Origin: Halobacteroides halobius DSM 5150
GTDB taxonomy: Bacteria; Bacillota; Halanaerobiia; Halobacteroidales; Halobacteroidaceae
Direction: 5' to 3'
NCBI RefSeq assembly: GCF_000328625.1
Contig: NC_019978.1
Span: 2,108,001-2,172,000, forward strand
Length of the DNA stretch: 64,000 nucleotides
In this document: positions 42,804-59,203 of the stretch, one piece after another
Layout: each line of letters begins with the position of its first letter
Position numbering within the stretch: position 1 is the first letter of the stretch
The notes under the pieces: generated by a model
Databases searched by the model: none
The model's input: only the letters and a program-made list of their open reading frames with translations
What the model was told of the DNA's origin: nothing
Program-made: the position numbers and the translations under genes

Positions 42804-42870
42804 TCCAAAAAACTAAAAAAAGACTGTTCTTAGAAACAGTCCTCAAGCCTTGCAATGATAAGGGCGGGAA
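42804..42870 (-). repeat. Direct repeat, right copy (terminator downstream of tRNA-Sec fragment)
   Basis: Partner of 40845-40911. On the minus strand the tRNA 3' end runs into CTTATCATTGCAAGG and then a hairpin (GACTGTTTC with the matching AGAACAGTC) with a T run, the natural terminator of selC. Confidence 0.7.
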
Positions 42871-42930
42871 AGTGTGGGAATCGAACCCACCACAGACAAC
42901 TAAAGCTGCCTGCCACTGGATTTGAAGTCC
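42863..42930 (-). pseudogene. selC: 3' half of tRNA-Sec (selC), probable island attachment site
   Basis: On the minus strand the sequence reads GGACTTCAAATCC (anticodon TCA), a perfect 8-bp variable arm (CAGGCAGC with GTTGTCTG, loop TTTA), a T arm (GTGGG with CCCAC), then the 3' acceptor strand ACTTTCCC, G and CC. These are tRNA-Sec features. The matching 5' acceptor (GGGAAAGT) and D arm are absent; upstream of the anticodon the sequence is AGCTACCTGCCA. A tRNA cut at the anticodon loop is the signature of a tyrosine-recombinase element, with the intact gene at the other end. Confidence 0.75.
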
Positions 42931-43050
42931 TGGCAGGTAGCTTTTTTCTATTATAACTAACATAATTAAGCCTTACAAAGCCTGCAACTACGCTATTTAT
43001 TTAGTAATAAGTAAATAAATTTAAAATGTTCCCCTCTGATTTGACGACAT

Positions 43051-43323
43051 CATGGCGACAAAGTGACGCCATGCTACTGCAACTCGATGTCGTTAACTTT
43101 CGATTAGGTGACGTTTTAATGTCACCTAATCGCATAGTTCACGACGTCCTATTAAAGATAAGCAACTTTTAATTGCACTGACGGTTGGAATGGAATGAAA
43201 AATGGTGATCTACCGGGTCCTGCGATTTTTGCAGGTTGTAGATCACCATTGAAAGTGGAATGGAAACTGTCATAATTTTTTATAGGAGACATGACTATGA
43301 AGTTTATAGTGATGTCTCCTATA
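43051..43323 (+). other. Structured non-coding element A (multiple long hairpins)
   Basis: No gene lies in 42964-43351. This region, visibly richer in GC than its surroundings, forms four strong hairpins. They are CATGGCG (43051-43073); a long one at 43086-43148 with an inner perfect 12-bp stem CGATTAGGTGAC; hairpin 1 at 43201-43250 (13-bp perfect stem AATGGTGATCTAC); and hairpin 2 at 43281-43323 (12-bp stem, a G opposite G, then 5 bp, loop GAAGTTT). Hairpins 1 and 2 recur with altered, compensated stems in element B at 61.0 kb. Family unknown. Confidence 0.6.
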
Positions 43324-43351: not shown

Positions 43352-43516
43352 TTATATCTCTTTTGCAATTTCTTTTAATGAATCTTTATCATTAGATGAA
43401 TATCTATAAGAAATACTATCAATATCTTTACTTCTAGCGTACTCTTTTACTTTCTCTCTTGAATCAGAAAAAACTAATTCATTAGCTACCTTAAATAATT
43501 CATATTTTTCTGTCAT
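43352..43516 (-). CDS. 54-residue protein downstream of the GIY-YIG gene
   Basis: 54 residues, not recognised. AAGGAG lies 9 bases before the ATG. Highly charged, with a helical N-terminal half (YELFKVANELVFSDSREKVKEYARS) and a C-terminal KDSLKEIAKEI. It follows the GIY-YIG gene by 78 bases in the same direction, so it may be an immunity or partner peptide of that pair. Codon use matches the island. Confidence 0.6.
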   Translation of the reverse strand: MTEKYELFKVANELVFSDSREKVKEYARSKDIDSISYRYSSNDKDSLKEIAKEI

Positions 43517-43594
43517 TCTATAATCTCCTTTTAATTTAGTAAATTAAAAATAATAACTTATAATTCTTCAGTAATTAATTATCTTTTAAACAAC

Positions 43595-44071
43595 TTATAA
43601 ATATTCATATTTTTCTTTAAATTTATTTACAATTTTTCTAGCACATTTTTTAACTATAGATTTAGAAGCCAAATCAATATATCTAACATTAGATATAACC
43701 TTAAAAGATGGATCTAAGTTTCCTCTAATAATTTGCAACTCTTTTTGAACTAAATATTCAACTGCCTCTCGATAAGAACTGCCAGCATTAATAAATTCAC
43801 TTTTACTTGGTAATACAAATGATAATAACATTACATCATTGGCTTTTTCAAGACCTATCCCAATTTTATTTTCAAAGTTTTTTCTGAAAGCACCATTGGG
43901 CTGCATATGGGAAGAAAGTCTTCCTAAAGTTCCTAATGCATCATTAGTTTGCCCAACATATACAGCCTCCCATTTCTTAGACACTAATATGTATATATAT
44001 GCTTTTTGATTACCATTAAAAATTGTAGAAACAGATGTTACAATTGATTTCATTTTCATATCTCTATCCAT
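43595..44071 (-). CDS. GIY-YIG nuclease-domain protein
   Basis: 158 residues. The motif AYIYILVSKKWEAVYVGQT (near 24-42) is the GIY-YIG core, followed by a conserved arginine in GRLSSHM and an acidic residue in the later helix (YREAVEYLVQKE). The C-terminal lysine-rich helix suits DNA binding. Its start lies within a few bases of the end of the HSP90-like ATPase gene, and a tight translational link is likely. I infer it to be the DNA-cutting partner of that ATPase. Confidence 0.8.
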   Translation of the reverse strand: MDRDMKMKSIVTSVSTIFNGNQKAYIYILVSKKWEAVYVGQTNDALGTLGRLSSHMQPNGAFRKNFENKIGIGLEKANDVMLLSFVLPSKSEFINAGSSYREAVEYLVQKELQIIRGNLDPSFKVISNVRYIDLASKSIVKKCARKIVNKFKEKYEYL

Positions 44072-44076
44072 AAAAA

Positions 44077-45843
44077 TCACTCATTAAAAGGCGGTAATTC
44101 ATTTTCAACTCTTCTGCATAATTCTTCTAAATATCTTGAAGTATAACGCCTAAATTCAGTAATTAATTTTTCAACCTGTTCCATTTCCAAATCTTCTACA
44201 TTTTTATAAGCATAATGTTCTGCTTCCACAGCTTCTAATAGAAAAAGTTCAAATAATACTTGCATAGCAGTATTATCGCTATTATCTTCAAAAACTAATT
44301 GTGAAAATCTATGAGAGGTATTTATTCTTACACAATTTTCACGATCAGTATCATAATATGGTTCCCAAAGCAAATGGTCATCTATACTTTCAACCCTATC
44401 AATTTTCTTTATAAACCTATGTTCGCTTTTTTCTTCTTTACCTTCTTCTTTACCTTCTTCTTTACCTTCTTCTTTACCTTCTTCTTTACCTTCTTCTTTA
44501 CCTTCTTCTTTACCTTCTTCTTTATTCTGCCCATATTTCTTTTCAAGTTCCTCTTCTCTTCTTTTTTTCTCCTCTTCTTCTCCAGAAGGTTCACCTGGTA
44601 AATTTTCTGGCGGTTCATATTCATTAGCAATATCATTTGATTTATTATTTGAAGTTTCATTTAATCTTTCGTTATATAACTTTGAAGCATTATTCCAGGC
44701 TTTTCTACTTTTTCGTTTATATTGAGCAGATAAATCACTAATAGTTCTCCAAGCATCTTCAGATAAAGTAATATCTGACTTTTTGACATCTATATTAAAA
44801 CAATCATCTGCTGAATCATCTATTAATATTCGTCCTCTAAATGAATAATAGTCTTGGTCTAGTGGAATAATAGGTCCATTTTTTGTACTAAACCGTTCTG
44901 CTAAATTATCTGAACTAGATATTAATCTTTTATTTCTATATACATAATATCCATAATTTCCAGCCCCAATATTATATTTATCTCTTATTTCTTTATCTTT
45001 ACCTTTTTCTTCAAGTTTGAATATTGGAGGGTATGGTAATTGAGTTACTTCAATTTTTGCTTTCACCCCTGCATCTGCATCTAACGTTACTTCTTGTGAT
45101 TTTTCAATAAATTTAACACTCTTACCATCCCAGTCATGTTCATTTAGATTACCATTTGCTTCTGCCTCATCGATAAAAAGTGGATCAAATGCATTAATAA
45201 CATTACCATCTACTGAAATTTGAACCCCATCTTCTTTAATAAAATAATAATAATTAATTCCTACTTTTTCCTTTAATTCACTAACTGTATTTTTAATACT
45301 TGGATGATCATCATTTCTAACATCTGCAATTCTAACTATAGTTCCTTTACCCTCATCTAAATTTTCTTCAATTAACTCTTTATCTTTATCATTTAATTCA
45401 ACTTCCTTAGCAAAATAGTCACCTTCTTGTTTTATGTCAGGTAATGACACAATAAATTTATTAAACTGACTATCGGCAGATGAAGAAATTAAATGTAGTT
45501 CATTTCCTTGAGAAAATGAAGCTGATTTGAGTCCTAAACCAAATTTTGATAATGAATTCTGTTCATAATTTTCATCAGTTGACCCCAATTTTAATGCTTC
45601 TTTCATTTTGGATTTGTTCATACCACAACCATCATCAATCACAAGATATTCCTGAACATTATTCTTTCTTCTATCATTATATTCTTTATTTTTCTTTAAA
45701 ATTTTAATATTTATATTACTAGCATTTGCCCTAATAGAATTATCTACTATATCACATAATGCAGTTACAGGAGTATATCCAATACGACTCAATCCATAAC
45801 ATAACCTCCAAGCATCCATTCCTAGTTCTTCTTTATTATACAT
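44077..45843 (-). CDS. HSP90/MORC-type GHKL ATPase
   Basis: 588 residues. The N-terminal GHKL fold has DNS (34-36), DDGCGM (70-75) and GLGLKSASFSQG (102-113). It continues through a transducer-like region with a conserved lysine (near 370, NIDVKKSDI). A linker with seven EEGK repeats (near 440-470) and a C-terminal helical domain follow. GHKL ATPases clamp on DNA by ATP-driven dimerisation. The gene has its own strong binding site (GGGAGGGG) and follows the terminator after the cysteine desulfurase. Coupled to the GIY-YIG gene. Confidence 0.8.
   Translation of the reverse strand: MYNKEELGMDAWRLCYGLSRIGYTPVTALCDIVDNSIRANASNINIKILKKNKEYNDRRKNNVQEYLVIDDGCGMNKSKMKEALKLGSTDENYEQNSLSKFGLGLKSASFSQGNELHLISSSADSQFNKFIVSLPDIKQEGDYFAKEVELNDKDKELIEENLDEGKGTIVRIADVRNDDHPSIKNTVSELKEKVGINYYYFIKEDGVQISVDGNVINAFDPLFIDEAEANGNLNEHDWDGKSVKFIEKSQEVTLDADAGVKAKIEVTQLPYPPIFKLEEKGKDKEIRDKYNIGAGNYGYYVYRNKRLISSSDNLAERFSTKNGPIIPLDQDYYSFRGRILIDDSADDCFNIDVKKSDITLSEDAWRTISDLSAQYKRKSRKAWNNASKLYNERLNETSNNKSNDIANEYEPPENLPGEPSGEEEEKKRREEELEKKYGQNKEEGKEEGKEEGKEEGKEEGKEEGKEEGKEEKSEHRFIKKIDRVESIDDHLLWEPYYDTDRENCVRINTSHRFSQLVFEDNSDNTAMQVLFELFLLEAVEAEHYAYKNVEDLEMEQVEKLITEFRRYTSRYLEELCRRVENELPPFNE
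44431..44522. repeat. 12-bp tandem repeat inside the GHKL ATPase gene
   Basis: About seven and a half copies of TTCTTTACCTTC. On the coding strand each unit encodes Glu-Glu-Gly-Lys. The copy number is prone to change by slippage, in steps that keep the reading frame. Confidence 0.95.
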
Positions 45844-45897
45844 TTAACCCCTCCCAATATATAAATATAAATTCTTACCATTTATTTATATAAAAAA

Positions 45898-45931
45898 AAA
45901 CAAATTCCTGCATAATAACAGAAATTTGTTT
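45898..45931 (-). terminator. Terminator after the cysteine desulfurase gene
   Basis: A 9-bp stem (AAACAAATT with AATTTGTTT) is followed on the minus strand by a long T run. It separates the phosphorothioation operon from the GHKL ATPase gene. Confidence 0.85.
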
Positions 45932-45949
45932 GATGATTATTTTTACTTA

Positions 45950-47095
45950 TTATATTAAAAAATCATTTAATGCATCTTTTAAATTATTTATATTATTTTT
46001 GTCATTAAAATAACCAATACTAAATCTCACAAGACCATTAGGCATTGTTCCCAAAAATTCATGAGTTTCAGGAGCACAATGTAATCCAGTCCTTACCGCT
46101 ATATTAAATTTTTCATCTAAAATTTTTCCTATATTATGTGGGGAATAACCAGAAACACTAACTGATACAACATTAAAATGATTCTCTAAATTATCTGGAA
46201 TAAAAATATCTATTTCCATAAATTCATTTAACATTGCTATTAATTCTTGAGTTAACTCTTTTTCATGCTTAAAAATAGTTTCAATATCCTTTTCCTGTAA
46301 CCATTCTAATGCAGTATTTAAACCAGCAATAGCTTGAATATTACTACTGCCTGCTTCGTATTTAACTGGAATCTGTTGTGGCATATTCTTTCTTTCTGAA
46401 GCTCTTCCCGTACCACCATGAATTAAAGTAGCAGGTTCTTCCGCATTTTCATCCATTATGATTCCAGCAATTCCAAATGGACCATAAAAAGTCTTATGCC
46501 CCGTCCATACATAATAATCAACATGTTCTAAATTAACATCAACTAGCCCAGCACCTTGAGCTCCATCAACTAAAACACTACTATTGTATTCCCGGGCCAA
46601 CTTAGCAATCTGCTCTACTGGAGCTATTAGCCCACATACATTACTAACATGAGATACAGCTACCAACCTAGGTGTTTCCTTAATAAACATCTGCTTTAGC
46701 TTATCTAATTTAAATTCTAAACTATCTTCTTCTACAGGAATCTGTCTTAATTTTAAGTTATACTTGTCTTTTAAATAGTACAAACTTCTTAAGACAGCAT
46801 TATGTTCAAAGGGAGAATAATAAACCACATCCCCCTTATTCCAATCTAAACCTTTTAATATTAAATTAATTGCTATTGTAGCAGATTCAGTAAAAACAAT
46901 TTCTTTATTCTGCTTAACATTAAGTACAGAAGCCACTTTTTCTCTAGTTTCATCTATTAGTCTACTAGCTTCATTGGCCACTTGATAAGAACCTCGTCCT
47001 GCATTAACTCCATACTCTCTATAAAATTTATCCATTTCATTATAAACAGACTCTGGTTTCGGATAAGTAGTTGCAGCATTATCAAAATAAATCAT
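45950..47095 (-). CDS. Cysteine desulfurase of the phosphorothioation system (SspA/DndA-type)
   Basis: 381 residues. PLP-dependent enzyme supplying sulfur from cysteine. The N-terminal IYFDNAATTYPKP, the histidine of HVSNVCGL, the PLP lysine in WTGHKTFYGPFG near 200 and the active cysteine in RTGLHCAPETHEF near 335 are present. The latter loop is of the SufS/CsdA type. Its ATG overlaps the stop of the large ATPase gene by 4 bases, so it is the last gene of the operon rather than a housekeeping iscS. Confidence 0.88.
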   Translation of the reverse strand: MIYFDNAATTYPKPESVYNEMDKFYREYGVNAGRGSYQVANEASRLIDETREKVASVLNVKQNKEIVFTESATIAINLILKGLDWNKGDVVYYSPFEHNAVLRSLYYLKDKYNLKLRQIPVEEDSLEFKLDKLKQMFIKETPRLVAVSHVSNVCGLIAPVEQIAKLAREYNSSVLVDGAQGAGLVDVNLEHVDYYVWTGHKTFYGPFGIAGIIMDENAEEPATLIHGGTGRASERKNMPQQIPVKYEAGSSNIQAIAGLNTALEWLQEKDIETIFKHEKELTQELIAMLNEFMEIDIFIPDNLENHFNVVSVSVSGYSPHNIGKILDEKFNIAVRTGLHCAPETHEFLGTMPNGLVRFSIGYFNDKNNINNLKDALNDFLI

Positions 47096-50000
47096 ACTAT
47101 CCCATCCTGTTCAAACATATCCTTCATTAAATTAATTAAAACCTGCTGCTTTTCTCGATCACTAACTGCTGGACCTATATCTTCAAAACTACTTTTAATT
47201 TTATTTTCTAATACTTTAGATAAACCATCTAGAGAAACTTCCTCAAATCTTCGCTCATATTTTTCTCCATCTTTATCAACTAAAACAAATTCATAAACAT
47301 TATTCTCTTTTTCCTCATCAGATTCCTCTAACTCTATTCCTTCAACTTCTTCTTTTATATCTTTAATATTATCTAAAAAATCTTCTACCGTTTTATCATT
47401 CCAATCATTTATATCAAAACCAGTTAAACTTCTACAAATTTCATTTAATAGCTTTTCTTCTTCAATTTCACTAATTTGTAATTTTCGTAGAATATTTAAA
47501 AAAGCATTTATTTCCCGAGTATAAGTATTAGTTTTAGCCTTCTTATCTAAGTTTTGATACCAAGTTGCTAAACTTTCCTTGAAAGTAACATTTTTAGCAC
47601 TAGCAAATAAATTACAAATTGAAATCTGTAATTTATTTATTAAATGATAATAAGCTTGATTATGTTCTTTAAAGAAAGTAGTTATTAGCTCTTTTAACTC
47701 ATCTACATTATTTTCATTAATAGAAGTCCCTAATAGCTTTTGAGGTATAATCTCTAATAAAATCCTTTTTACTTCTGAGGATCTCTTATTTAAAATTTTT
47801 CTAATAGTTACTGAACTTTTAGATAATTCAGTAGTTTCTCTAGAATACTTCGGTAATCCTTGGTACCATTCTTTAATTGCATTATATAATTTTTTTAATC
47901 TATTTACTTCTTCACTATTATTTTCTTCTAATCTATCATCATAAAGTTCCTCTAAAAATAAAATATATTCTTCCTTAGCAGAATCCCAAGTAGTCTTTTC
48001 AATTGTATATCTAGTTGGATGTTTATTTATTCTTTCAAATAACTTAGCATTGATTTCCCTTTCTTCACCATTATGTCTAATGATTGCATGTTTTAAATCA
48101 TCATCTATTTCACCTGCTATTACTAATAAAATAGGAATAATGCCTAATCTAAGTCCATAAGGTGGTCTTCTTAATTGATCATAAACTTCTTTAAACTTCA
48201 CTTTATCCGTTGAACAGTATAGTTTTTCTCTAATCAATCTAATAATTTCTTTTAAATTTTCATCTATTCCTTCCTTACTTCCTTCACCATCTGAAGTATG
48301 AGTTAGATTTTGTTCTATATTTTTCCTGGACTCATTATCTAAAATCTCTGGATTAAACATTAAGTTCTCTGACTCTTTACCTTCTTTTAATAATAATTTA
48401 GTCTTAATTAACATAGTTCGATAAATTAAAAAGTTAGGTCTATATCCTTCAATACCTAATCTTTCTGTTAAATCCCTAAAGATTAATCTATTATTTATAT
48501 CTTTACGAGCTGATTTTTGGGGACTACTTATTTTATTTTTAACAACTAATTCATTATTAATAACTGGAGTCTTAGCAAAATATTCTTCACAAACTTCAGA
48601 TATTTTTTTAGATATATCTCTACGTGACTTTATTCTAGAAATTACACTACCTTGGTGATAATATAAAGCATTATCATAATAAGGTTCTATGAATTTAGTT
48701 AATTTATTATCTAACAATTGTCTAGTCTCAGTTATATAAGCATTTAATTCTTTCTCTGCTAAAGAGTCTTGCTTTAAAAATTCTTTATCTTCTTTTAGAA
48801 TCTTTTGAGCATCAAAACTTCTTAATAATTCATTTAATTCTAGAGGCTTTTTAGGTCGTACAAAGATTACCCTGTCACTATTTATCTCATCACTCATTTC
48901 TTCAATATATTTAGTGGCTTCTTCTATCTCTTGGTTAGATTCTAATAAAAGGTAAGCTATCAGTCCATCTTCATAATTTTTATCATTATGTTCAATTAAA
49001 TATTCATCCCAATCATTAATACTTTTTAATTCATCTAAATAGAAATAATCACTTACAAAATAACGACGAATCTTATATTGATGATTATACTCTTTAGGAT
49101 AAATTGGAGCTGGTTTAAAATTCTCTTCTAATAAATATTTAGGAGAAAAGGTATTTTCTCGTTCTGCCTTTGTTTCCTCTATTTTTTTATTAAAGTCAAT
49201 TTCACTTCCCTCAAAAAATACAAAATGATCTAAACTCTTGCGGTGTAAAATAACTTTAGATTCAACTAATTTATCAACTAAATTATCAAATTCTTGTTCA
49301 CTTAAATGATCTAAAGCAAATTTTAATATTTCTTTAGAAGGTGGAATCTCTGAAAAGTTATTAACTGCAGTTATAATTCCTAGACTTTTAATGAATTCCT
49401 GCTTGTTCTTTTCATCAAATTCAATTTTCTGTAAAGCTCTCTCTGAATCAGCCCAAGCTTGATGAACCTGAGTGTAATCTAACTCTTGTTGCATTAAATC
49501 TGCAAAATAATCATAAATACTAGAAGGTTTAACTATTGGAAAATCCTCATTTCTATTCTCCTTAATAAACTCTCCTAAAGTATTTTCCTCTTCAGTTGAT
49601 AAATAAGTGAAAATAGTCCTTTCATTTTGAGCTATCTTCTGCGATAATTTTGGTAGTAAAATAGTCGTTAAAGGATGTAAAGGATAACAGCCTCTTAAAA
49701 TATATTCTTCCTTTTCCTGTTCATTATAATCAGGGCCAATATTTAAATCTTTAATCCACTTATTATAAAACTCAAAGTTTTCTTGATTATTCTCTTGAAA
49801 TTCTTCCCAAGAATCTTGTTCTTTAACAATAACATTAGACATTAATTCATAGATTTGACTAGAATACTCAGTAGCATCTAATGTTTTAAATCTTTCTTGA
49901 ACCTTTTTCCATTCATTAACTTGGGATTCAGATAAATCAGTAGTATATTGAACCATTTTTTTATGAGAAACTAATAGTAAGTGGATTTCATTCTCTCCAC

Positions 50001-50844
50001 TTCTAGTAGCCATTTCAGCAAAGTCTTGTAATTCCTTACTATTAAAACTTTCAACATTTCTTTCAAGTAACTTATTAAACTCATCAAAAACAACATAAAT
50101 CCCTTGATACCCTCTTTTTCTTATCTCACTATTAACAGCTCGATAAATATCCTCTAAATTACAACCATAAAAAGGATTAAATTCTCCCCCAGAAGTTAAT
50201 TTAGGATATTTATTCACAAAGAACTGATAACTTTCCTGGTCAAAATTATTTATTTTATCTTTAAACTCATCTATATCTACTCCACGTTCCTTTTCTAATA
50301 AATCAATAAAATCACTATAGGTAGCCTCATAATCTTTCTCCCATTGCTCTAACTTATGTATTATAGAATTAAAATAAGTAGCTGGGAATATATCTTCTAA
50401 TCCATTCTTACTTAATGCTTGTTGCAAAGCCGCCAACATACTTTGCTTAAAGCTACCACCATCTGTTGTAGGTAATACTATTAAATAAGGATCTTTTTCT
50501 GTAATTTCTTGTTCTAATCTAGTGGCTAATGTATTATCAAATCTACCTATTTTACTAATAAAATTATCATATTTTTTAGGATCCTGTTTATTAGATAATA
50601 TTGTACCTAAAACTGTTCCAAATAAAGATTTACCCGTCCCATAAGCTCCAATTAGAAGATGAGCTCGACTAATTGCATTATCTTTAAAAGAATCAAAAAT
50701 CTCTTGAAAAAGTTTAATGTTTTTAGCAGTTGGTACATAATTATTTAATTTTTCAAAATCTCCAATATCAAACTTTATATTTACTGAATATTTAAAACTA
50801 TTCTCAGTATTAATAAATGATAGCGTATCCTTTGGCATTATCAT
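47092..50844 (-). CDS. Large P-loop ATPase of the phosphorothioation system (SspC-like)
   Basis: About 1,250 residues. Walker A GAYGTGKS (66-73), Walker B VVFDEFNK (near 250) and a sensor-like LLLVSHKK (near 290) mark an AAA+/STAND-type ATPase core, followed by a long helical region without known domains. Similar giant ATPases sit beside DUF4007 and PAPS-reductase-like genes in single-strand phosphorothioation (Ssp) operons, where the ATPase is needed for modification. The SspC assignment rests on position and the P-loop. ATG at 50844 has AAGGGG upstream. Confidence 0.75.
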   Translation of the reverse strand: MIMPKDTLSFINTENSFKYSVNIKFDIGDFEKLNNYVPTAKNIKLFQEIFDSFKDNAISRAHLLIGAYGTGKSLFGTVLGTILSNKQDPKKYDNFISKIGRFDNTLATRLEQEITEKDPYLIVLPTTDGGSFKQSMLAALQQALSKNGLEDIFPATYFNSIIHKLEQWEKDYEATYSDFIDLLEKERGVDIDEFKDKINNFDQESYQFFVNKYPKLTSGGEFNPFYGCNLEDIYRAVNSEIRKRGYQGIYVVFDEFNKLLERNVESFNSKELQDFAEMATRSGENEIHLLLVSHKKMVQYTTDLSESQVNEWKKVQERFKTLDATEYSSQIYELMSNVIVKEQDSWEEFQENNQENFEFYNKWIKDLNIGPDYNEQEKEEYILRGCYPLHPLTTILLPKLSQKIAQNERTIFTYLSTEEENTLGEFIKENRNEDFPIVKPSSIYDYFADLMQQELDYTQVHQAWADSERALQKIEFDEKNKQEFIKSLGIITAVNNFSEIPPSKEILKFALDHLSEQEFDNLVDKLVESKVILHRKSLDHFVFFEGSEIDFNKKIEETKAERENTFSPKYLLEENFKPAPIYPKEYNHQYKIRRYFVSDYFYLDELKSINDWDEYLIEHNDKNYEDGLIAYLLLESNQEIEEATKYIEEMSDEINSDRVIFVRPKKPLELNELLRSFDAQKILKEDKEFLKQDSLAEKELNAYITETRQLLDNKLTKFIEPYYDNALYYHQGSVISRIKSRRDISKKISEVCEEYFAKTPVINNELVVKNKISSPQKSARKDINNRLIFRDLTERLGIEGYRPNFLIYRTMLIKTKLLLKEGKESENLMFNPEILDNESRKNIEQNLTHTSDGEGSKEGIDENLKEIIRLIREKLYCSTDKVKFKEVYDQLRRPPYGLRLGIIPILLVIAGEIDDDLKHAIIRHNGEEREINAKLFERINKHPTRYTIEKTTWDSAKEEYILFLEELYDDRLEENNSEEVNRLKKLYNAIKEWYQGLPKYSRETTELSKSSVTIRKILNKRSSEVKRILLEIIPQKLLGTSINENNVDELKELITTFFKEHNQAYYHLINKLQISICNLFASAKNVTFKESLATWYQNLDKKAKTNTYTREINAFLNILRKLQISEIEEEKLLNEICRSLTGFDINDWNDKTVEDFLDNIKDIKEEVEGIELEESDEEKENNVYEFVLVDKDGEKYERRFEEVSLDGLSKVLENKIKSSFEDIGPAVSDREKQQVLINLMKDMFEQDGIV

Positions 50845-50854
50845 CACTTTCCCC

Positions 50855-51724
50855 TTATCTTAATTTAGAATTATAGTATTCCGCTAAAACTTCACCCTTA
50901 GAAAGTTTCTTTAATTTAATTGAGTTCAACCCAGCTTGTCTATCTAACCGTAAATAATCAAGTTCTTGTAGATGCTCTAAGTATTCATGTAATAAAGTCA
51001 TATTAAGCTTAAAAACTTTTCCTATTGAACCTTCATCATTTAAAACCTCTTCTATATTAACTGAATCTTCATTATCTAATGAGTCTAATAAACAATAATA
51101 CAAAATTCTAGGTGGTAAATTATCAACATCAGGTCTTTGTACTCTATAATTTCCTTCATCTGTTTTAACAAGTAATTTTAATTCTCGAAATGGAGATTCC
51201 ATTGAATTTTCAGGTGAAATATTTTCTTCTGGATCATATAAATACATTCTTCTAAAAACCTTAAAGTCTCTTTCTAAAGAGGTTTTAGCTGGAGGTTCTT
51301 CTCCTGTCCTTTTAATATATTTCTTTAATCTTTCTATAAATAATTCCTCATTAAACTCTAAATGATTAAATTGATTAAAAAACCAGTACCAACTTGTTGC
51401 TGATTCTTTATTAGTTGCTATATTAAAATGTAATAACCAAAATGTAGCCGGGTCTTCAAAATACTCATCATACTCTAAAATCTCTTTAGCTAATTTTTTC
51501 TTAACTTGAATTTTCTTTCTTTTATTAAAATCCACTTCTGTTAAACCTGCAGTTTTCATCCAATATCTTAAAGCAGATACCATATTTTTTCCTATTCCCA
51601 ACTCATCCATAGCTAGAATAGTTTCTAAAAATATATGATTATTTTTTTCAATAGCATCTAATCCTTTACGAAACCATCCTGTTCTAATATGAAAAGTTTC
51701 GTGTCTAGCAAAACTATAACTCAT
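50855..51724 (-). CDS. DUF4007 protein (SspB-like, DNA-binding or nicking subunit)
   Basis: 289 residues. The start SFARHETFHIRTGWFRKGLDAI and NMVSALRYWMKTAGL fit the DUF4007 family, which travels with phosphorothioation genes. Helical with likely winged-helix parts (FKLNMTLLHEYLEHLQELDYLRLDRQAGLNSIKL near the end). In the described Ssp system the corresponding subunit nicks DNA for sulfur insertion; no nuclease motif can be seen here. 17 bases from the upstream gene and 10 from the large ATPase. Confidence 0.75.
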   Translation of the reverse strand: MSYSFARHETFHIRTGWFRKGLDAIEKNNHIFLETILAMDELGIGKNMVSALRYWMKTAGLTEVDFNKRKKIQVKKKLAKEILEYDEYFEDPATFWLLHFNIATNKESATSWYWFFNQFNHLEFNEELFIERLKKYIKRTGEEPPAKTSLERDFKVFRRMYLYDPEENISPENSMESPFRELKLLVKTDEGNYRVQRPDVDNLPPRILYYCLLDSLDNEDSVNIEEVLNDEGSIGKVFKLNMTLLHEYLEHLQELDYLRLDRQAGLNSIKLKKLSKGEVLAEYYNSKLR

Positions 51725-51741
51725 CTTATCCCTCTTTCTAT

Positions 51742-53649
51742 TTAATAATCGACCATTGCCTTAGTAATTAAACATCCTTTATGGAAATGAGCAACACAAT
51801 CCATACAATGGTCACACTTTTCTTCATCAACTTTATATCCTCTAGTTAGACTTATTGCATCATTAGAACAGACATTTAAGCAAGCAGAACAACTTATGCA
51901 GGACTGATACTTTCTGATTTGACATTCAATCCTTTGAAATAACAAATGGGAACTTAATTTCTTATCTTTAGTTCGCTGTTCTTTTATTTGTTTTAAATTT
52001 TCTTCAAATACTATAATCTTAAGCTGATTACTTCCTTTATTTCCTTGTAATTTAATTTTTGGGATTCCTGCTTCTAAAATATAAACTTCACCTAACATTT
52101 GATCGCCGATATCTTTATTAATAACCCCAAAAGGTTTAAAGAACTCATATAGACTATCATCAATTGGTCGTGTTAAATCATAGTTTTTAGCCTTATTTTC
52201 TAAAGCACAGGGTTCAGCTTCTAAAACAGTATTGCTTGTATCTAAACCTTGTCCTCCTTGTCTAGCTTTCCACTTACCAGTATCCACATATACTTCAGGG
52301 TCTGGTTTACCAACTTTTTTAGCAAAATCAACTAAGAAATCTCTCCAACTTTCAGCTCTCTTAGGCATAAAAATCTTACATAAAAATTCTGACCAAGCTG
52401 AATTATTAGGACAACACCAACAACCAACTCTAGTAAATCCTAATTTATAAGCCTCATTAAAATCTATTCCTCTCGTTAAAAGATACAACCACACTTCCGA
52501 ATCATGCCAATCAATAATTGGAGAAACTACTAATTGTTTAGAAATCTTAGGACTTTGCGTTATTTTATCATACTTACTTCTGGAAGTAGATTCCGAACGC
52601 CTAACTCCATAAAATGTTAAGATCTCTTGCTGATTTGCTACTTCCCTAAACAAATTACCAATTGGCCCTGTTTTAAAAATACTACAACACCAACTAATAA
52701 CTCGACTAGGCGGGCCAAACTGCTCAGCTAAATCATAAAAACTTTGGTTAGGAGTATCTACTGGAAGAAATGGAGGACGATTAGGTTTATTTTTAATCCG
52801 CTCAATATAATCATAAGTAAAGGGAAACTCGAGAGTAGTATCACCAAATACATGCAAAACATCTTGACTACTAAAGGCCCTTCTTACAAGATCAGAAACT
52901 ACGGTAGAATCTTTTCCTCCACTGAAAGAAACAACTTCTAATCTTTTATTAAAAATTTCAGATGTTTTTTCAATAAAATCAATAGCATTTTTATCAATAT
53001 AATTAAAATGCTCTCTATTTACTTCAATAAACTTAGAAAAATCCACTTCTCGATCATTTTCTTCAACTTTCTGTTGTATCTTTTCTATCTTTTGATCTAG
53101 ATTATCAGCATTATATAAATCTTTAATTACTATATCACTTGTTTCACCATCGATAATGTATCTATTTCCCACTCCATTCCAAATGTTAGATTCAGTCACA
53201 TCTCTATCTAACAGAATACTAAGCATTATCCGTTCTTTCATAAAAACTGGTCTAATATCTTTACTCACATAATTTATTTCATTATTACAATTTGGACAAA
53301 ATTGTTTTTGATTATTGTTATCTTCTTGATCTGCTAACTTTAGCTCTAAATATCTAAAAGTGAATTCTAATAATTTATCTCTATTACCCATTTTTAAATC
53401 TACTGTAGGTTCTTCAATTATCTCTTTTTTTATTTCTGTTTTTTCCTTTTTATTTTCAATCCTCTTATCTACTTCTTTTTTTAACTGGATAAATTTAAAA
53501 TAATCTGCTTCATTACCTGCATTATCTAAAACCCACTCAATAACTTCATCTTCAATATCTAAATAAGGATTTTCCTCTGCTCTTTTTTTATCCTTATTCA
53601 TTGTTTGTAACACTGGAACCTCACAATTACTACACCAAAATACTTCCAT
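51742..53649 (-). CDS. PAPS-reductase-like sulfur transferase with Fe-S domains (SspD/DndC-type)
   Basis: About 635 residues. An N-terminal split zinc finger (CSNCEVP and CPNCNN) is followed by an ATP-pyrophosphatase/PAPS-reductase domain with SFSGGKDSTVVSD near 245. A cysteine cluster (CCSIFK, GCWCCPN) follows. A ferredoxin-like tail (CISCSACLNVC and CDHCMDCVAHFHKGC near 590-630) could bind two 4Fe-4S clusters. It activates DNA backbone phosphate for sulfur transfer. First gene of the modification operon; GTG at 53658 is less likely than the ATG at 53649. Confidence 0.85.
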   Translation of the reverse strand: MEVFWCSNCEVPVLQTMNKDKKRAEENPYLDIEDEVIEWVLDNAGNEADYFKFIQLKKEVDKRIENKKEKTEIKKEIIEEPTVDLKMGNRDKLLEFTFRYLELKLADQEDNNNQKQFCPNCNNEINYVSKDIRPVFMKERIMLSILLDRDVTESNIWNGVGNRYIIDGETSDIVIKDLYNADNLDQKIEKIQQKVEENDREVDFSKFIEVNREHFNYIDKNAIDFIEKTSEIFNKRLEVVSFSGGKDSTVVSDLVRRAFSSQDVLHVFGDTTLEFPFTYDYIERIKNKPNRPPFLPVDTPNQSFYDLAEQFGPPSRVISWCCSIFKTGPIGNLFREVANQQEILTFYGVRRSESTSRSKYDKITQSPKISKQLVVSPIIDWHDSEVWLYLLTRGIDFNEAYKLGFTRVGCWCCPNNSAWSEFLCKIFMPKRAESWRDFLVDFAKKVGKPDPEVYVDTGKWKARQGGQGLDTSNTVLEAEPCALENKAKNYDLTRPIDDSLYEFFKPFGVINKDIGDQMLGEVYILEAGIPKIKLQGNKGSNQLKIIVFEENLKQIKEQRTKDKKLSSHLLFQRIECQIRKYQSCISCSACLNVCSNDAISLTRGYKVDEEKCDHCMDCVAHFHKGCLITKAMVDY

Positions 53650-53836
53650 AACTATCACCTGCTATATTATAAAAATAGATATTCAATTTTTTATTACTAA
53701 ATCTAAAATAGTACTCCAACAGTTAATTATAAATTATTATCTTACACTTGTCTAGTCTTAAAAACATCTAATTAAGTATTACTATATAAAAGACAAATAA
53801 CCTCTTCTAAAACTAATTTTAATGATTAAAATAAAT

Positions 53837-53871
53837 AAAACCTAGATTATATTTAACATAAAATCTAGGTT
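53837..53871 (-). terminator. Terminator between the two phosphorothioation operons
   Basis: A 9-bp stem (AACCTAGAT with ATCTAGGTT) is followed on the minus strand by TTATTTATTTT. It shows that the upstream operon ends after the 173-aa gene and that the modification operon has its own promoter in the 249-base gap. Confidence 0.85.
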
Positions 53872-53907
53872 AACTAATATAAAAGCAAATTATAAATAAT
53901 AAAAGAT

Positions 53908-54429
53908 TTAACTCATTAACGCACTTATAATAGCTCTATCAGCACTATTATCTATTTGTTCATTTTCTATCTTCTTAATAAAATCATAATAGTTACGCAA
54001 ATAAGCATCTTTATCAGTCGACTCTCCTATTATCTCGCTATGAAGTATATCAATTCCACCAATCGCATATGACTTAAATAAATCATACTTTTGATTTTCC
54101 TCTGAGACTTCATTCTTAGTATTTGCAAACCAATCAGAAAATGTCTGTTTCAATAATTTATCTTTTTCTAAACTATTATCATTATTCTCAATTAGAAAAG
54201 CTAAACTAGATAAATATTTTATTCTCATACGTTCATTTTGAAGCTGTTCAGCAAAAATGGTTACTTTATTTTTATCCCTTTTTTCTTCTTCTTTACTATT
54301 AAATAACATTCCTACCACTCCACCAACAATATATACATCTAAAAAACGTTCAAATAAATTAGTATCATTCTTTAAAGAACGAATTTTATTAGCAGTAGAT
54401 CCATAAAAGATAAGACTACTTGTTAACAT
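53908..54429 (-). CDS. 173-residue protein of the DndD/helicase operon, unknown
   Basis: 173 residues, not recognised. Helical, with a hydrophobic N-terminal part (LIFYGSTANKIRSL; FLDVYIVGGVVGMLFN near 30-45) that could be a buried helix rather than a membrane span, and acidic segments later. It starts 2 bases after the DndD-like stop, so the two products are probably made together and may interact. No nuclease motif seen. A third-subunit role like that in SspFGH is possible but untested. Confidence 0.6.
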   Translation of the reverse strand: MLTSSLIFYGSTANKIRSLKNDTNLFERFLDVYIVGGVVGMLFNSKEEEKRDKNKVTIFAEQLQNERMRIKYLSSLAFLIENNDNSLEKDKLLKQTFSDWFANTKNEVSEENQKYDLFKSYAIGGIDILHSEIIGESTDKDAYLRNYYDFIKKIENEQIDNSADRAIISALMS

Positions 54430-54431
54430 AT

Positions 54432-56384
54432 TTACCCTCCTATTACTTCTGTATATTTCTCATCTTCAATCTTCATATCTAATTCATACTCTTTACCTAT
54501 TTGTCCCTGAATAGCTTCTTCTATATCTCCTTCATATTGACTATCAACTGTAAATAAAATAAATTGCTCAACTATTTCTGGTAAAACATTAGCAACATTC
54601 TTTCGATGGGCTTTAGATAATTTAGCAAATGGAGCATCCATAATCAAAGGATATGGTTCTGTAACTTCAATATCTTCATGTCTTTCTTTGGCCAACTTAA
54701 TTAGTCCCCCAATAAAAGCAAAACTAGTTATAACATCTTGCCCTTGAGAAGTAGCATCTTCACCATCTATATCTATTACTCTAAATGTATAATCATCATT
54801 AATTTCTATTTTATGATTAGTTTCAATTAGTTGGTCAAAAACTTCACTTACTTTTGCATTTAACTTTTCTCTCACTTCTTCTTCTTTCTTTTTATAATAC
54901 TCTAATATCTCTTTTTTAACTTCATTTGCATATCTCTTTCTTACTGCAATTTTAGTATTTTTAGTACTATTTAAAGCTAACTTATCTAATTCAGCTTCTT
55001 TATTTTCAATTTCTCCCTTAACCTTTTTTAATTCAGATAAATTATCAGTATGTTTATCTTTTAATTCCTCTAATTCTTCTTCATGGTTTTCTTTCTTTTC
55101 TTCTAATTCTTTAACATCTTCAGCATCTCTTAGTTCTTGTGAAATTTCTTCAACTTTCCTTTCAAGATTTTCAATTTGATCACGCTTTCTTTCAATATCT
55201 TTATACTTTTCTTCAAATGAATTTACAAAGTTACTACCTTTATTCTTTACATCTTCTGTTTTATCATTAAATTGTATAATTATTGTTCCAAGGCTAGCTG
55301 GAGGCTGATATTTTTTCTGTTCTAATAATTTTTGATAATGTTTCTCACCTTTTTTTATTTTTTGACCACATATACATCTTCCCGATTCAATAATAGAATC
55401 AATTGCTGAACCATCTATTCCAGATATTCCTTTAGATTCTAATTCACTTAAATCAAATTTATCTCTACATAAACTTAATAATTTACTTGCTATAAATTCT
55501 GGTAAATTATCCTTATTGATTTTTTCTATATCTTCTTTTAATGCCTCAATATCTCTTTCTAAACTTTCTATCTGATCTTCATATTGTTCCCTTGCTTTTT
55601 GTTTTTCAGCAGCTGATGCATTTGCTTTAATTTTTTCAGTTAATTCTTCAATCTTTTCTTTTACTTCTTCTATTTCTTCTTCATTTGTATTAACTAGTTT
55701 TTTATACTTCTTTTCTTTCTTCCTGTCTTCCCTTAACTCCTCTCGAAGAGACTTCATTTGACTAGAATTATCATCATTATAGTCAGATTCAAACTCTTTA
55801 ACCAATTTTCTTAAATGTTTTTCAGCATTTAATAATATATCTAATCCTAAAATATTCTTTACTGCCTCACTTAAATCTTTTTTTCCTTTTCTATTAGATT
55901 TAGATAAATTTTCTATCCTTTCACCATCAAAGAAAAAATAAGTAGATAAATCATCAGGTAATATGTTATCTATTTCTCTTTTAGGACGCTTTATATCTTT
56001 TAAAGTCCCATCATTCTTTTTCATTTGGATATTAAAATCTCTCGATTTTCTATCCAAATCTTCATTATCTTTCTTCATAAATTCTTCTGATCTTTTAATG
56101 AAGTATTCAGTATTATTATGTTCTAAATTTATTTTTACAAATAATTCAGCAGTATCTTTTGGTTTTAATCTATTAGCCAAGTCTGTGTTCAATAGTCTAT
56201 CCTTATTAGGCAAATTTAATTTTTTATATAAACACCAAGAAAATGATTCTAATAATGTAGTTTTACCTGCTCCATTTTCTCCTTTTATAACTGTTATATT
56301 CTTATCTGGATCAACTGAAAAATCTATCTTTTGTTCTCCTTTATATTGTCTAAAATTTTTCAGGGTTATACTTTTAACTAACAT
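54432..56384 (-). CDS. DndD-like SMC/Rad50-type ATPase
   Basis: 650 residues. ABC-type head split by coiled coils: Walker A GENGAGKT (35-42), the FFFDGERIENL segment near 150, a hook-like cysteine pair RCICGQ near 340 in the middle of the coils, then SQGQDVITSFAFIGG and Walker B LIMDAPFAKLS near 590. This matches DNA sulfur modification protein DndD and related restriction ATPases. It is in a different operon from the PAPS-reductase gene. The start overlaps the 53-aa gene by 11 bases; GAGGAGGT is its binding site. Confidence 0.82.
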   Translation of the reverse strand: MLVKSITLKNFRQYKGEQKIDFSVDPDKNITVIKGENGAGKTTLLESFSWCLYKKLNLPNKDRLLNTDLANRLKPKDTAELFVKINLEHNNTEYFIKRSEEFMKKDNEDLDRKSRDFNIQMKKNDGTLKDIKRPKREIDNILPDDLSTYFFFDGERIENLSKSNRKGKKDLSEAVKNILGLDILLNAEKHLRKLVKEFESDYNDDNSSQMKSLREELREDRKKEKKYKKLVNTNEEEIEEVKEKIEELTEKIKANASAAEKQKAREQYEDQIESLERDIEALKEDIEKINKDNLPEFIASKLLSLCRDKFDLSELESKGISGIDGSAIDSIIESGRCICGQKIKKGEKHYQKLLEQKKYQPPASLGTIIIQFNDKTEDVKNKGSNFVNSFEEKYKDIERKRDQIENLERKVEEISQELRDAEDVKELEEKKENHEEELEELKDKHTDNLSELKKVKGEIENKEAELDKLALNSTKNTKIAVRKRYANEVKKEILEYYKKKEEEVREKLNAKVSEVFDQLIETNHKIEINDDYTFRVIDIDGEDATSQGQDVITSFAFIGGLIKLAKERHEDIEVTEPYPLIMDAPFAKLSKAHRKNVANVLPEIVEQFILFTVDSQYEGDIEEAIQGQIGKEYELDMKIEDEKYTEVIGG

Positions 56385-56535
56385 CTACTTCTACCTCCTC
56401 TTCTATAAGCTTCTTAATTTCAGCCCTTTTATCTCTTTCCAGCATAGATTTTTTATGTGCGCATTTTTTCTCCAATTTTATAATTTCTGTTATTAATTTT
56501 TCTACTTTATTGGAATCAACAGAAATATCGTCCAT
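56374..56535 (-). CDS. 53-residue coiled-coil protein between helicase and DndD-like genes
   Basis: 53 residues with GGAGG about 10 bases before the ATG. Rich in Lys and Glu and probably one long helix or coiled coil (VEKLITEIIKLEKKCAHKK). It begins 5 bases after the helicase stop and overlaps the DndD-like start, so it is translationally coupled to both. Its position suggests a linker or regulatory subunit of the helicase-ATPase complex. No family recognised. Confidence 0.65.
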   Translation of the reverse strand: MDDISVDSNKVEKLITEIIKLEKKCAHKKSMLERDKRAEIKKLIEEEVEVDVS

Positions 56536-56540
56536 CAAAA

Positions 56541-58703
56541 TCAATCCTCCTCTTCAGAATATTTATTATAAACTTCTTCAATCTCTTCTAAAGGTTTTAA
56601 TGCTTTGCGATGATTCTCTGCTAAGCTAGCAAATTCTTTAGCTCTCTTAACTTCTTTTTCAACCAATGAAAGATCATATTTAAGCAATTGTTGGTCTATT
56701 AATGGTACCTCTTCAATCGGACGTGGTAAAGTAATAAAATCATATATATAAGCAAAATCTTTTCCTTTAAACTGTCTAAGAACTCTTCCTCTCCTTTGTA
56801 TAAATTCTCTAGGATTAGTGCTACTAGCAAGAATATATGCATTCTCAATAGCAGGTATATCTACTCCCTCATCTAAACATTTTATTGCTACTATAGATTG
56901 TAATGTCTCTCCATCACTAAAGTTTTTTATTATTTTCTTTCTTTCTTCCATTGATTCTTCTGCCGTAAATTTAGCTACTCTCATATTTAATTCATTACCT
57001 AATATTCTAGTTACAGCTTCTATCTGCCGCATTTCTCTATTACTAAATTCATCTTCAACATATGTAGATCCGCAATAAACTAAATTATAATTACTTTCAG
57101 TCCTTTCTTTCATTAATTCTCTTAATTCATCTAGTTTATTAGTAGCTCCAGCAACTAAACGGGCTCTTTTAATTAACAATCTCTTAGCTACTTCTGTTAG
57201 TTCAGTTCCTTCATCAGTATGGGCTAGACTTTTATATGCTTTTTTAGATATTTTTAAATATTCATCATACTCTTCATTAGTCAAGTATACAATTTGTGGA
57301 TAATAATAATATTGAGTCAAAAAACCATCAGCTATAGCTCTTTTTAATCCAAAGTGATATACTTGTTTATCAAAATAATCAAATATAGCTTTAGTACCTT
57401 CTTGATCAAAATGCCTCTTAGGAGTAGCAGATAAAGCTAATCTATACTCAAAATTATTATTTAATACTTCTAAAAATCCAGTCGCTCCTGCATTATGTAC
57501 TTCATCCACTACAAAAACTACATTCTCATTAATATTATCAATTAGTTGTTGAAATTTATCTGTTTTATAAGTTCCATTTGTTGTAACAATAGATATATGA
57601 TTTATAATATCTAAATTATATCTGTGAATTTTTTTATCTAGTATTTTACGCCAATTTTTTTGATCAGAACTAGAATAGGCAATAATTGGATCCATGTTAA
57701 ACTCAACTATATCTTCTCTCCATTGCTCTACTAAGTGGGTATAGGGACAAACTATTATAACAACTAATTTATCATCTAAATCATTCCATAATTTTGTTAT
57801 ACCAGATAATGCAGTAATAGTTTTTCCAGTTCCCGTAGCCATATTTAATAATCCTACATAATCATTAGCTATCCAAGAATCAATTGCTTTTTGTTGATAA
57901 CCTCTAATATCTAACCAATCTGGTAACTTAGGATAATTAGTTTTATAACTATAGGTTGCTTTACTTTCAGAAACTTTATTATTTAAATTTAATATTCTTT
58001 CCTCTTTTTTTACATAACCTTTTTTATAATTTAAAATTTCATCTCTAACAGCATCAGGAAAATCATAAATAGCTAAACGATTAGTTTCATTTTTCCATAA
58101 TTGATCAAAATCTCTAGATTTATTTCTAACCCTTTCTAAATCTGTTCCACCATTCCAAGAACAATAAACATCTATAGATTCAAAATTACTTTGAATTGCA
58201 TTTTCAGTTTCATTAAGTGAACCAGTAAAGGCAACTTTATTTCCTAACTCATCCTCTACAATTCCAATTTTTTCATGGTATATTCCTCGAGTTTTCCCTT
58301 CATCTATTAATGCAATTTTAATATCTAATTGATTATTACTTATTAAATGAGCAAGATAATTGTATCTTTCTTTTTCAATATCATTTTTTGGTTCTCTAAA
58401 ATTTCTAAATAAAGCTCTCTTCATAACTTCATCCCTTAATTCATAGCCTGTCTGAATTGCTTCAATATCATCCTGATTTAATTCTGGTGATGCAACTATC
58501 TGTATTTTCCCATTATTATCAATTAACTTAGATATACCTTTCGATAGTTGCAATAATACAGCACTCGAAAAATAACCTACTGCTCTTTTATAAATCACAG
58601 CATTAGATAAAACTGGAATATAAAAATTCCGTATAAGCTCATCTTTATTATCAGATCTATATCCAATTTTTAAATCCAAATCCTTTAGTGACATATTATA
58701 CAC
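56541..58703 (-). CDS. SF2 helicase with N-terminal phospholipase-D-type nuclease domain
   Basis: 720 residues. The N-terminal PLD-like domain has IYHEKIGIVED followed by TGSLNE (near 140-165), a slightly altered HxK motif. The helicase core begins near 270: Walker A MATGTGKT, motif II VVDEVHNAG, motif III LSATPKR, and motif VI QRRGRVLRQ near 645. It can be read as a nuclease that moves along DNA, and it is the best candidate for cutting DNA in this operon. Related helicases occur in restriction and phosphorothioation clusters. Confidence 0.82.
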   Translation of the reverse strand: MYNMSLKDLDLKIGYRSDNKDELIRNFYIPVLSNAVIYKRAVGYFSSAVLLQLSKGISKLIDNNGKIQIVASPELNQDDIEAIQTGYELRDEVMKRALFRNFREPKNDIEKERYNYLAHLISNNQLDIKIALIDEGKTRGIYHEKIGIVEDELGNKVAFTGSLNETENAIQSNFESIDVYCSWNGGTDLERVRNKSRDFDQLWKNETNRLAIYDFPDAVRDEILNYKKGYVKKEERILNLNNKVSESKATYSYKTNYPKLPDWLDIRGYQQKAIDSWIANDYVGLLNMATGTGKTITALSGITKLWNDLDDKLVVIIVCPYTHLVEQWREDIVEFNMDPIIAYSSSDQKNWRKILDKKIHRYNLDIINHISIVTTNGTYKTDKFQQLIDNINENVVFVVDEVHNAGATGFLEVLNNNFEYRLALSATPKRHFDQEGTKAIFDYFDKQVYHFGLKRAIADGFLTQYYYYPQIVYLTNEEYDEYLKISKKAYKSLAHTDEGTELTEVAKRLLIKRARLVAGATNKLDELRELMKERTESNYNLVYCGSTYVEDEFSNREMRQIEAVTRILGNELNMRVAKFTAEESMEERKKIIKNFSDGETLQSIVAIKCLDEGVDIPAIENAYILASSTNPREFIQRRGRVLRQFKGKDFAYIYDFITLPRPIEEVPLIDQQLLKYDLSLVEKEVKRAKEFASLAENHRKALKPLEEIEEVYNKYSEEED

Positions 58704-58741
58704 ACCTACATTCTAATTTTAAAGTAGTAGCAAAAATAACT

Positions 58742-59203
58742 CTAATATGTTTTTCTACCTTTTTTAATAAACTCACACTGCTCAATATCCCATTTTTCAT
58801 CATCTTCAGAAGCTTTAACTAATAGATATTCTTTTTCTACTTTTTTTACTTTTGCTCTATTTCCAGTTTCATTTTCAACAATATCATTCTTTTCAAATTT
58901 TCTATTTGAATTAGTGAGTTCCATATCTTTTAAAATCCTAATTAATTTTATTAATTGCTCTTTCGTACAAGTTACTCCTTTACCTGGCTTTCCATCTTTG
59001 CTCCATTTTCTAATTTCATATTTATATTTTCTATTATTCCAACTAGTTTTGGTAACTTGAATCTCCCAATTTTTTGATAAATTTATTTTACCAAATATCT
59101 CTTCTTTATCATAATTAAATGCAAAATTTTTCTTCTTTGATTTCTTCGAATTTTCTTTTTTATTATTTAGAGCTTTTTCTATAGTTTTACTGTAATTAGA
59201 CAT
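58742..59203 (-). CDS. PC4/YdbC-like single-strand DNA-binding protein
   Basis: 153 residues. After a lysine-rich N-terminus, WEIQVTKTSWNNRKYKYEIRKWS with DGKPGKGVTCTKEQLIKLIRILK (near 47-95) is the PC4/YdbC fold, which binds single-stranded DNA. A C-terminal SH3/KOW-like part (FEKNDIVENETGNRAKVKKVEKEYLLV) follows. First gene of the helicase-DndD operon. It could load the helicase on DNA or regulate the operon. Confidence 0.75.
   Translation of the reverse strand: MSNYSKTIEKALNNKKENSKKSKKKNFAFNYDKEEIFGKINLSKNWEIQVTKTSWNNRKYKYEIRKWSKDGKPGKGVTCTKEQLIKLIRILKDMELTNSNRKFEKNDIVENETGNRAKVKKVEKEYLLVKASEDDEKWDIEQCEFIKKGRKTY

Follow-up and report, generated by a model that had tools for sequence, protein, structure and literature searches.

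A MORC-type ATPase encoded with a GIY-YIG nuclease: a probable, undescribed restriction partner of phosphorothioation systems

As judged from gene order and phylogeny, a MORC-type GHKL ATPase and a GIY-YIG nuclease are encoded together and inherited together in bacteria of several phyla. The pair recurs beside genes for DNA phosphorothioation (PT) and is probably an undescribed restriction partner of PT marking, in which a nuclease different from that of the sister MORC operons has been swapped in. We infer from the sequences that the pair probably restricts DNA, and it is reasonably likely that the two proteins form a restriction module working together with the PT mark.

The gene pair and its setting

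The pair was found in a stretch of 64,000 nucleotides of the Halobacteroides halobius chromosome, here called the window. An ORF check recovered, on the minus strand, all three reading frames that the initial annotation had described, with the boundaries given in the following list of features.

44077..45843, minus strand: MORC-type GHKL ATPase, 588 aa (Pfam HATPase_c_3 3.7e-25; GHKL and S5 motifs; AF2 model; MORC3 match)
43595..44080, minus strand: GIY-YIG nuclease, 161 aa (Pfam PF01541; invariant residues; AF2 model; I-TevI match)
43352..43516, minus strand: 54-aa ORF 3' of the nuclease gene (ORF; AGGAG Shine-Dalgarno-like sequence upstream)
44431..44524, minus strand: in-frame tandem repeat, 12 bp, 7.8 copies, 100% match, coding for the EEGK-type linker of the ATPase
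45898..45931, minus strand: terminator-like hairpin in the interval between sspA and the ATPase gene (14-bp stem and T-tail)
45950..47095, minus strand: SspA/DndA-type cysteine desulfurase (profile searches: Pfam, PADLOC, NCBIfam)
47092..50847, minus strand: SspC ATPase (PADLOC SspC 1.2e-153)
50855..51724, minus strand: SspB, DUF4007 (Pfam DUF4007 2.6e-91)
51742..53658, minus strand: SspD-type PAPS reductase with 4Fe-4S domain, BrxP-like (PAPS_reduct 1.7e-34, Fer4; PADLOC BrxP 6e-93)
53908..54429, minus strand: protein of 173 aa, probably the one of the PbeD position (by location; dnd_assoc_4 matches weakly, E 0.01)
54432..56384, minus strand: PbeC, DndD-like ABC ATPase (PADLOC PbeC 2.7e-224)
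56374..56544, minus strand: small gene in the PbeB position, 56 aa, without family (position only)
56541..58703, minus strand: PbeA, PLD-helicase (PADLOC PbeA 1.9e-256)
42806..42933, no strand assigned: att-like direct repeat of 128 bp, comprising the 3' part of tRNA-Sec (94% identity with the copy at the intact gene, 27.3 kb off)

Read 5' to 3' on the minus strand, the order is sspD-sspB-sspC-sspA, the terminator-like hairpin, the ATPase gene, the GIY-YIG gene and the 54-aa ORF, and a PbeABCD restriction module, not named for this locus in the initial annotation, lies in the same operon as the Ssp genes (PADLOC and position). The profiles for SspA, SspC, SspB and the PAPS reductase, together with the hairpin at 45898-45931, bear out the earlier placement of the pair 3' of an Ssp-like operon and behind a terminator. 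The nuclease gene starts at a GTG in a 4-bp overlap with the ATPase stop codon, and 9 bp further on there is an ATG in the same frame.

The ATPase is, on sequence criteria, a member of the MORC family and not of paraMORC1-5, because every family member carries the S5 motif defined in 2008. Its N-terminal GHKL domain is followed by the S5 domain, an acidic linker and a C-terminal domain (about residues 480-582). The HATPase_c_3 match (E 3.7e-25) is above the Pfam cut-off, the ATP-binding motifs DIVDNS, DDGCGM and FGLGLKSA are present, and residues D31, D34, N35, D70, G72, G74, G102, G104, K106, G167 and T168 are invariant across 11 homologues. The S5 motif reads GYYVYRNKRLI, fits the prokaryotic MORC pattern GhXhhpXXRhl and is kept in 18 of 18 family members. 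The best structural match of the AF2 model (pLDDT 77) is MORC3 with a Z score of 23.6 (rmsd 3.1 over 302 residues), followed by MORC4 (Z 22.9), SMCHD1 and MORC2, the latter also as the structure with DNA (Z 20.6). The EEGK-type linker repeat (44431-44524) does not occur in the aligned relatives; gain or loss of one 12-bp unit would change the linker length without a frameshift.

The GIY-YIG assignment of the 161-aa protein is safe. Its AF2 model (pLDDT 86) gives modest Z scores in VIA with I-TevI (6.5, 90 of 94 residues), PD-T4-3 (5.3) and Slx1 (4.4), and the assignment is secure despite these values because the Pfam score (PF01541, 27.3 bits with a cut-off of 22.6) and the invariant residues Y30, Y41, R54, H58 and E108, which include the Tyr, Tyr, Arg and Glu catalytic in this superfamily, agree; G43 is likewise invariant among the 11 homologues. 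All nine best VIA matches are GIY-YIG proteins, while Foldseek returned no significant match for the model and a search of PDB sequences with the GIY profile gave none. A GIY query against plasmids, viral contigs and 121 relatives found no homologue beyond the window copy. Pfam matches, motifs and structure models thus concur with the initial annotation in calling the ATPase MORC-type and its partner GIY-YIG. In Leucothrix the corresponding protein (L091:3464-4456) is longer, with 330 aa, has a C-terminal HEPN_Swt1 match just under the cut-off and is possibly a GIY-HEPN fusion.

The 54-aa ORF is probably co-transcribed with the nuclease gene. No family was found for it below E 0.01 in Pfam, PADLOC, NCBIfam or PHROGs, nor a further copy in the genome or a phage match, and a counterpart is absent from the related loci. 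It had been regarded as part of the system; being missing from related loci, it stands outside the recurrent module. A role as antitoxin or inhibitor was considered and dropped, as no homologue was found. Just 3' of the ORF, an inverted repeat of 18 bp with a single mismatch is visible by eye (window 43281-43323); transcription of the pair may terminate there, although the repeat is absent from the terminator scan list.

The PT operon, the Pbe genes and the MORC-GIY pair are cargo of a ~27.3-kb element integrated at tRNA-Sec. The repeat of the tRNA-Sec 3' part (42806-42933) matches the copy at the intact tRNA-Sec gene over 128 bp at 94% identity, 27.3 kb apart, and a tyrosine integrase gene ends beside the intact gene at the far end of the element (L211:5455-6793). 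ARAGORN detected no tRNA in the window, as no more than the 3' part of tRNA-Sec is present there. Other genes of the element encode a phage-like repressor, an ImmA-like protease, DnaD/DnaC-like and lysis functions; no structural genes were seen among the ORFs scanned.

Distribution and association with phosphorothioation genes

A profile-guided scan of genome contigs yielded at least 80 loci with MORC-like ATPases. With a profile of close relatives, 18 sequences (window included) scored 448-884 bits and the others at most 230 bits among the matches listed, and this gap holds with the GHKL profile built without the L086 paralogue. The family ATPases form one clade with a support of 100/98 (IQ-TREE), which spans Bacillota, Bacteroidota, Pseudomonadota, Actinomycetota, Poribacteria and Melainabacteria; several of the loci are on MAG contigs. 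A GIY gene lies 3' of the ATPase gene within ~20 bp in 11 of the 14 genome loci among the matches listed. The loci without a downstream GIY gene are L084, where the ATPase is shortened, L085, at a contig end, and L087, on a MAG contig of short length. GHKL and GIY distances correlate with a Spearman coefficient of 0.84 over 11 rows, of which the L086 row represents the wrong paralogue.

The family is sparse in the groups surveyed. It occurs in 5 of 299 Flavobacteriaceae genomes, in near-identical copies, and in two other orders (248 and 250 genomes) only the starting genome reached the family score range. Viral contigs gave no match with a single-protein GHKL query and only other MORCs with an alignment query. 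PLSDB plasmids and phage records likewise held no family members, only distant MORCs of 22-30% identity. In the sister MORCs, an HNH nuclease gene comes next in 10 of 10 tested; on annotated plasmids this MORC-HNH combination stands with Dcm (cytosine methyltransferase), Vsr, a helicase and an EcoRII-N protein.

Counting SspBCD, SspFGH or DndFGH, with family and control loci scanned alike, PT genes lie in the fetched stretches of 11 of the 14 family loci listed versus 0 of the 66 other MORC loci (P = 3e-11); with Flavobacteriaceae counted once, P = 8e-9 for the loci listed. The initial annotation had called for a survey of GHKL-GIY pairs near PT genes and had reasoned that pairs found mostly without them would speak against a connection; in the loci listed the opposite is seen. 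This is further supported by DUF4007, which is present in 10 of 14 family genomes and 0 of 14 control genomes from the loci listed. An intact DUF4007 gene is found in 12 of 299 Flavobacteriaceae, and all five family genomes are among those 12; the remaining seven SspB loci keep sspBCD without MORC-GIY.

Gene order points in the same direction. Five loci (L079-L081, L088 and L090) have sspB-sspC-sspD-MORC-GIY on one strand, and three others (L089, L091 and L143) have sspC-sspD-MORC-GIY, with sspB of L089 and L143 located outside the stretch with the pair, elsewhere in the genome. The arrangement is sspB-C-D-DUF6997-sspF-G-H-MORC-GIY in Paenibacillus (L082/L193). Clostridium (L083) has dndF-G-H-MORC-GIY with a DUF262 gene next in line, and its genome encodes DndC on a separate contig, next to genes resembling DndD and DndA. 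In Streptosporangium (L086/L192) SspABCD and SspE are found ~13 kb from the pair, and L084 and L087 carry neither PT genes nor a GIY gene. The terminator between Ssp operon and pair is specific to the window copy, since in ten relatives the ATPase gene comes next after sspD, sspH or dndH on the same strand. The PT link looks old, because all four deeper branches of the clade (L091, L086, L089 and L143) are PT-linked. The pair can be the only nuclease of an Ssp system, as in Flavobacteria, Poribacteria and Methylococcaceae; elsewhere it is stacked on SspFGH, DndFGH or SspE, and in the window on PbeABCD.

Further GHKL genes were observed near PT systems. A GHKL-like gene for ~830-850 aa with a weak HATPase_c_3 match lies 5' of sspB in two flavobacterial stretches (L191:1892-4441 and L080:1844-4342), and a similar one is found beside a flavobacterial sspBCD without MORC-GIY (L201:811-3279); it is possibly another GHKL partner of PT systems. 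A second module by sspBCD, in Streptosporangium (L192:11677-16195) and Flavobacteriaceae (L202:334-4769), consists of an SF2 helicase, a GHKL protein of 611-628 aa that falls outside the MORC-GIY clade and a protein of ~300-316 aa, PLD-like in L192. The Methylococcaceae genome with L143 has, on a second contig (L195:792-4905), an sspC-like gene, sspB and another sspC-like gene in a row.

Proposed role and alternative readings

MutL works with MutH in cutting DNA, and a similar division of labour is proposed here. The MORC protein would dimerise upon ATP binding around DNA and form a clamp, its C-terminal domain or linker would recruit the GIY-YIG protein, and the latter would nick or cut the clamped DNA. 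Sister bacterial MORCs may act likewise with the HNH nuclease encoded by the adjacent gene. PT marks on host DNA would reset the ATPase or block productive clamping, so that self is spared and unmarked invader DNA is cut. By analogy, we favour PT as a protecting mark over PT as a licence: SspFGH and DndFGH, on which the pair is also found stacked, damage DNA that lacks PT. Since the sister MORCs go with HNH and cytosine methylation genes, the GIY pair would represent the same MORC chassis with another nuclease and another modification.

It is a tentative suggestion that the MORC clamp itself reads PT through its ATP cycle and thereby gates the nuclease. For the restriction module in general there are precedents. 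Human MORC2 is an ATP-driven DNA clamp that compacts DNA with ATP (PMC12216690), and DndI, whose gene is transcribed together with dndFGH, is a PT-sensing nickase that works independently and that PT releases from self DNA (PMC11662687); DndI and SspE exemplify two modes of nuclease control by a PT-linked NTPase. Against a PT-coupled module stands the window itself, where the terminator separates the pair from an Ssp operon that already has PbeABCD; the loci L084 and L087 and the rarity of the family also count against it.

The pair might instead be an effector of the SspE kind, in which contact with host PT switches the MORC on, the GIY-YIG protein attacks phage DNA and the system is silent rather than toxic without PT genes. 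The other single module known to partner SspABCD, SspE, requires PT for its activity (PMC9646914), and at some family loci the pair is the sole nuclease of the Ssp system. We regard this reading as unlikely, as a protecting mark is favoured both by the loci shared with SspFGH and DndFGH and by the parallel to MORC-HNH systems linked to methylation, although neither is decisive.

A contribution to modification rather than restriction, with the pair nicking or opening DNA for sulfur insertion or repairing failed insertions, is improbable. It would be in line with the SspB nick needed for PT insertion (PMC8092258), with the position after sspD in one operon (L079-L081 and others) and with the L089 and L143 stretches, which hold the pair without the sspB found elsewhere in these genomes. 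However, sspBCD is kept without the pair at 7 of 12 Flavobacteriaceae SspB loci, and the pair ends SspFGH and DndFGH operons, behind the restriction genes.

A comparably low probability attaches to a backup suicide effector that would cleave DNA indiscriminately upon failure of the PT system, as conceived for the standalone URI/GIY nucleases of Rakesh et al. While URI nucleases do lie at the boundaries of Dnd systems (PMC10853773) and the window pair sits at a border, behind a terminator, in the relatives the pair shares its strand with the PT operon and the nuclease invariably comes with a MORC ATPase of its own, unlike a standalone enzyme. Finally, an independent defence system merely sharing defence islands with PT genes, which the initial annotation had also offered, would account for the terminator that separates the two units here, the 13 kb gap in Streptosporangium (L086/L192) and the PT-free loci L084 and L087, yet it is disfavoured by the PT linkage and very improbable, given that the other MORC loci listed, also defence genes, are near PT genes in 0 of 66 cases and that the same-strand operon order extends across several phyla.

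A restriction module coupled to PT marking would also have a place to fill. In one survey sspE or sspFGH lie beside only ~7% each of 2,678 sspBCD modules (PMC8092258), so many Ssp systems lack an assigned restriction partner. MORC-GIY would fill part of this gap, standing beside 5 of 12 intact Flavobacteriaceae SspB genes in near-identical copies. A two-gene construct makes the role of a bacterial MORC testable. If the MORC clamp does read PT, PT-dependent restriction would gain an additional class, and bacterial MORC proteins would be tied to self/non-self discrimination based on the DNA backbone.

Comparison with known systems

PADLOC, NCBIfam, Pfam and PHROGs hold no profile for the pair, the best match being MzaB, far under its cut-off. 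The MORC-GIY combination is not mentioned in the 2026 BREX survey, the SspFGH paper or the 2008 MORC paper; the last names neither GIY/URI nor sulfur (PMC2292703), and Rakesh et al. 2024, who place URI (GIY-YIG) nucleases at Dnd locus borders, do so in a text without GHKL, MutL or gyrase (PMC10853773). The earlier description of the pair as undescribed therefore stands for profile libraries and CC-licensed papers, where no other name was found, a description in a subscription journal or preprint being possible.

Among named profiles, MzaB of the MZA system comes nearest to the ATPase (PADLOC 1.3e-16, NCBIfam 3e-26). The window protein was rejected as MzaB with 91.7 bits versus an NCBIfam cut-off of 850; the Z1 and AIPR genes of MZA are missing among the window neighbours and present at the distant relative L028. 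The sister MORC group was likewise rejected as MZA, with HNH next in 10 of 10 tested. BREX type 4 combines PglZ and BrxL with a PAPS reductase, DUF4007 and BrxC; PglZ or BrxL were not detected by PADLOC in the main window ORFs (43352 to 59203), the PAPS reductase itself being BrxP-like.

SspFGH, DndFGH and PbeABCD are PT-linked restriction modules that occur in the same operons as the pair and can coexist beside it; in the window, PbeA and PbeC are genes separate from the pair. The pair has no homology to these modules, with PADLOC giving MzaB for the ATPase and weak UzuA and PDC-S14 matches for the nuclease. SspE and DndI (DUF262-DUF1524) resemble the pair as single PT-linked restriction units in which an NTPase controls a nuclease. 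In L083, MORC-GIY appears to share a transcript with dndFGH, which is also the arrangement of DndI. SspE and DndI are, however, each one protein with other ATPase and nuclease folds, whereas MORC-GIY comprises two proteins, and Pfam and PADLOC detect no DUF262 or DUF1524 domain in the pair. The view that the pair is none of DndFGH, PbeABCD, SspE and SspFGH is thus upheld.

CMoRE/PD-T4-3, a GIY-YIG type IV restriction enzyme (PMC12923530) and the second-best structural match (Z 5.3), also employs GIY-YIG in modification-based defence. It is a single protein with its own sensing domain, directed against 5hmC, while the window nuclease has no sensing domain and is accompanied by an ATPase. In VcSduA, an anti-phage GHKL-Shedu fusion, a GHKL ATPase controls a nuclease as proposed for the pair; there the nuclease is a fused PD-(D/E)xK domain, and the portion of the source considered here reports no PT link (PMC12137116).

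A close likeness is also seen to the prokaryotic MORC restriction-modification operons of Iyer, Abhiman and Aravind (2008, PMC2292703), namely the group with MORC, HNH, Dcm, Vsr, helicase and EcoRII-N. Both have a MORC gene directly followed by an endonuclease gene and a link to DNA modification, and the ATPases share the S5 motif and the C-terminal region. The two differ in nuclease and mark, with HNH and cytosine methylation in one and GIY-YIG and PT in the other, whose pair includes no helicase or EcoRII-N gene. Together they would amount to a natural module-swap experiment, in which one MORC chassis is combined with HNH and cytosine methylation genes in the sisters and with GIY-YIG and PT genes here.
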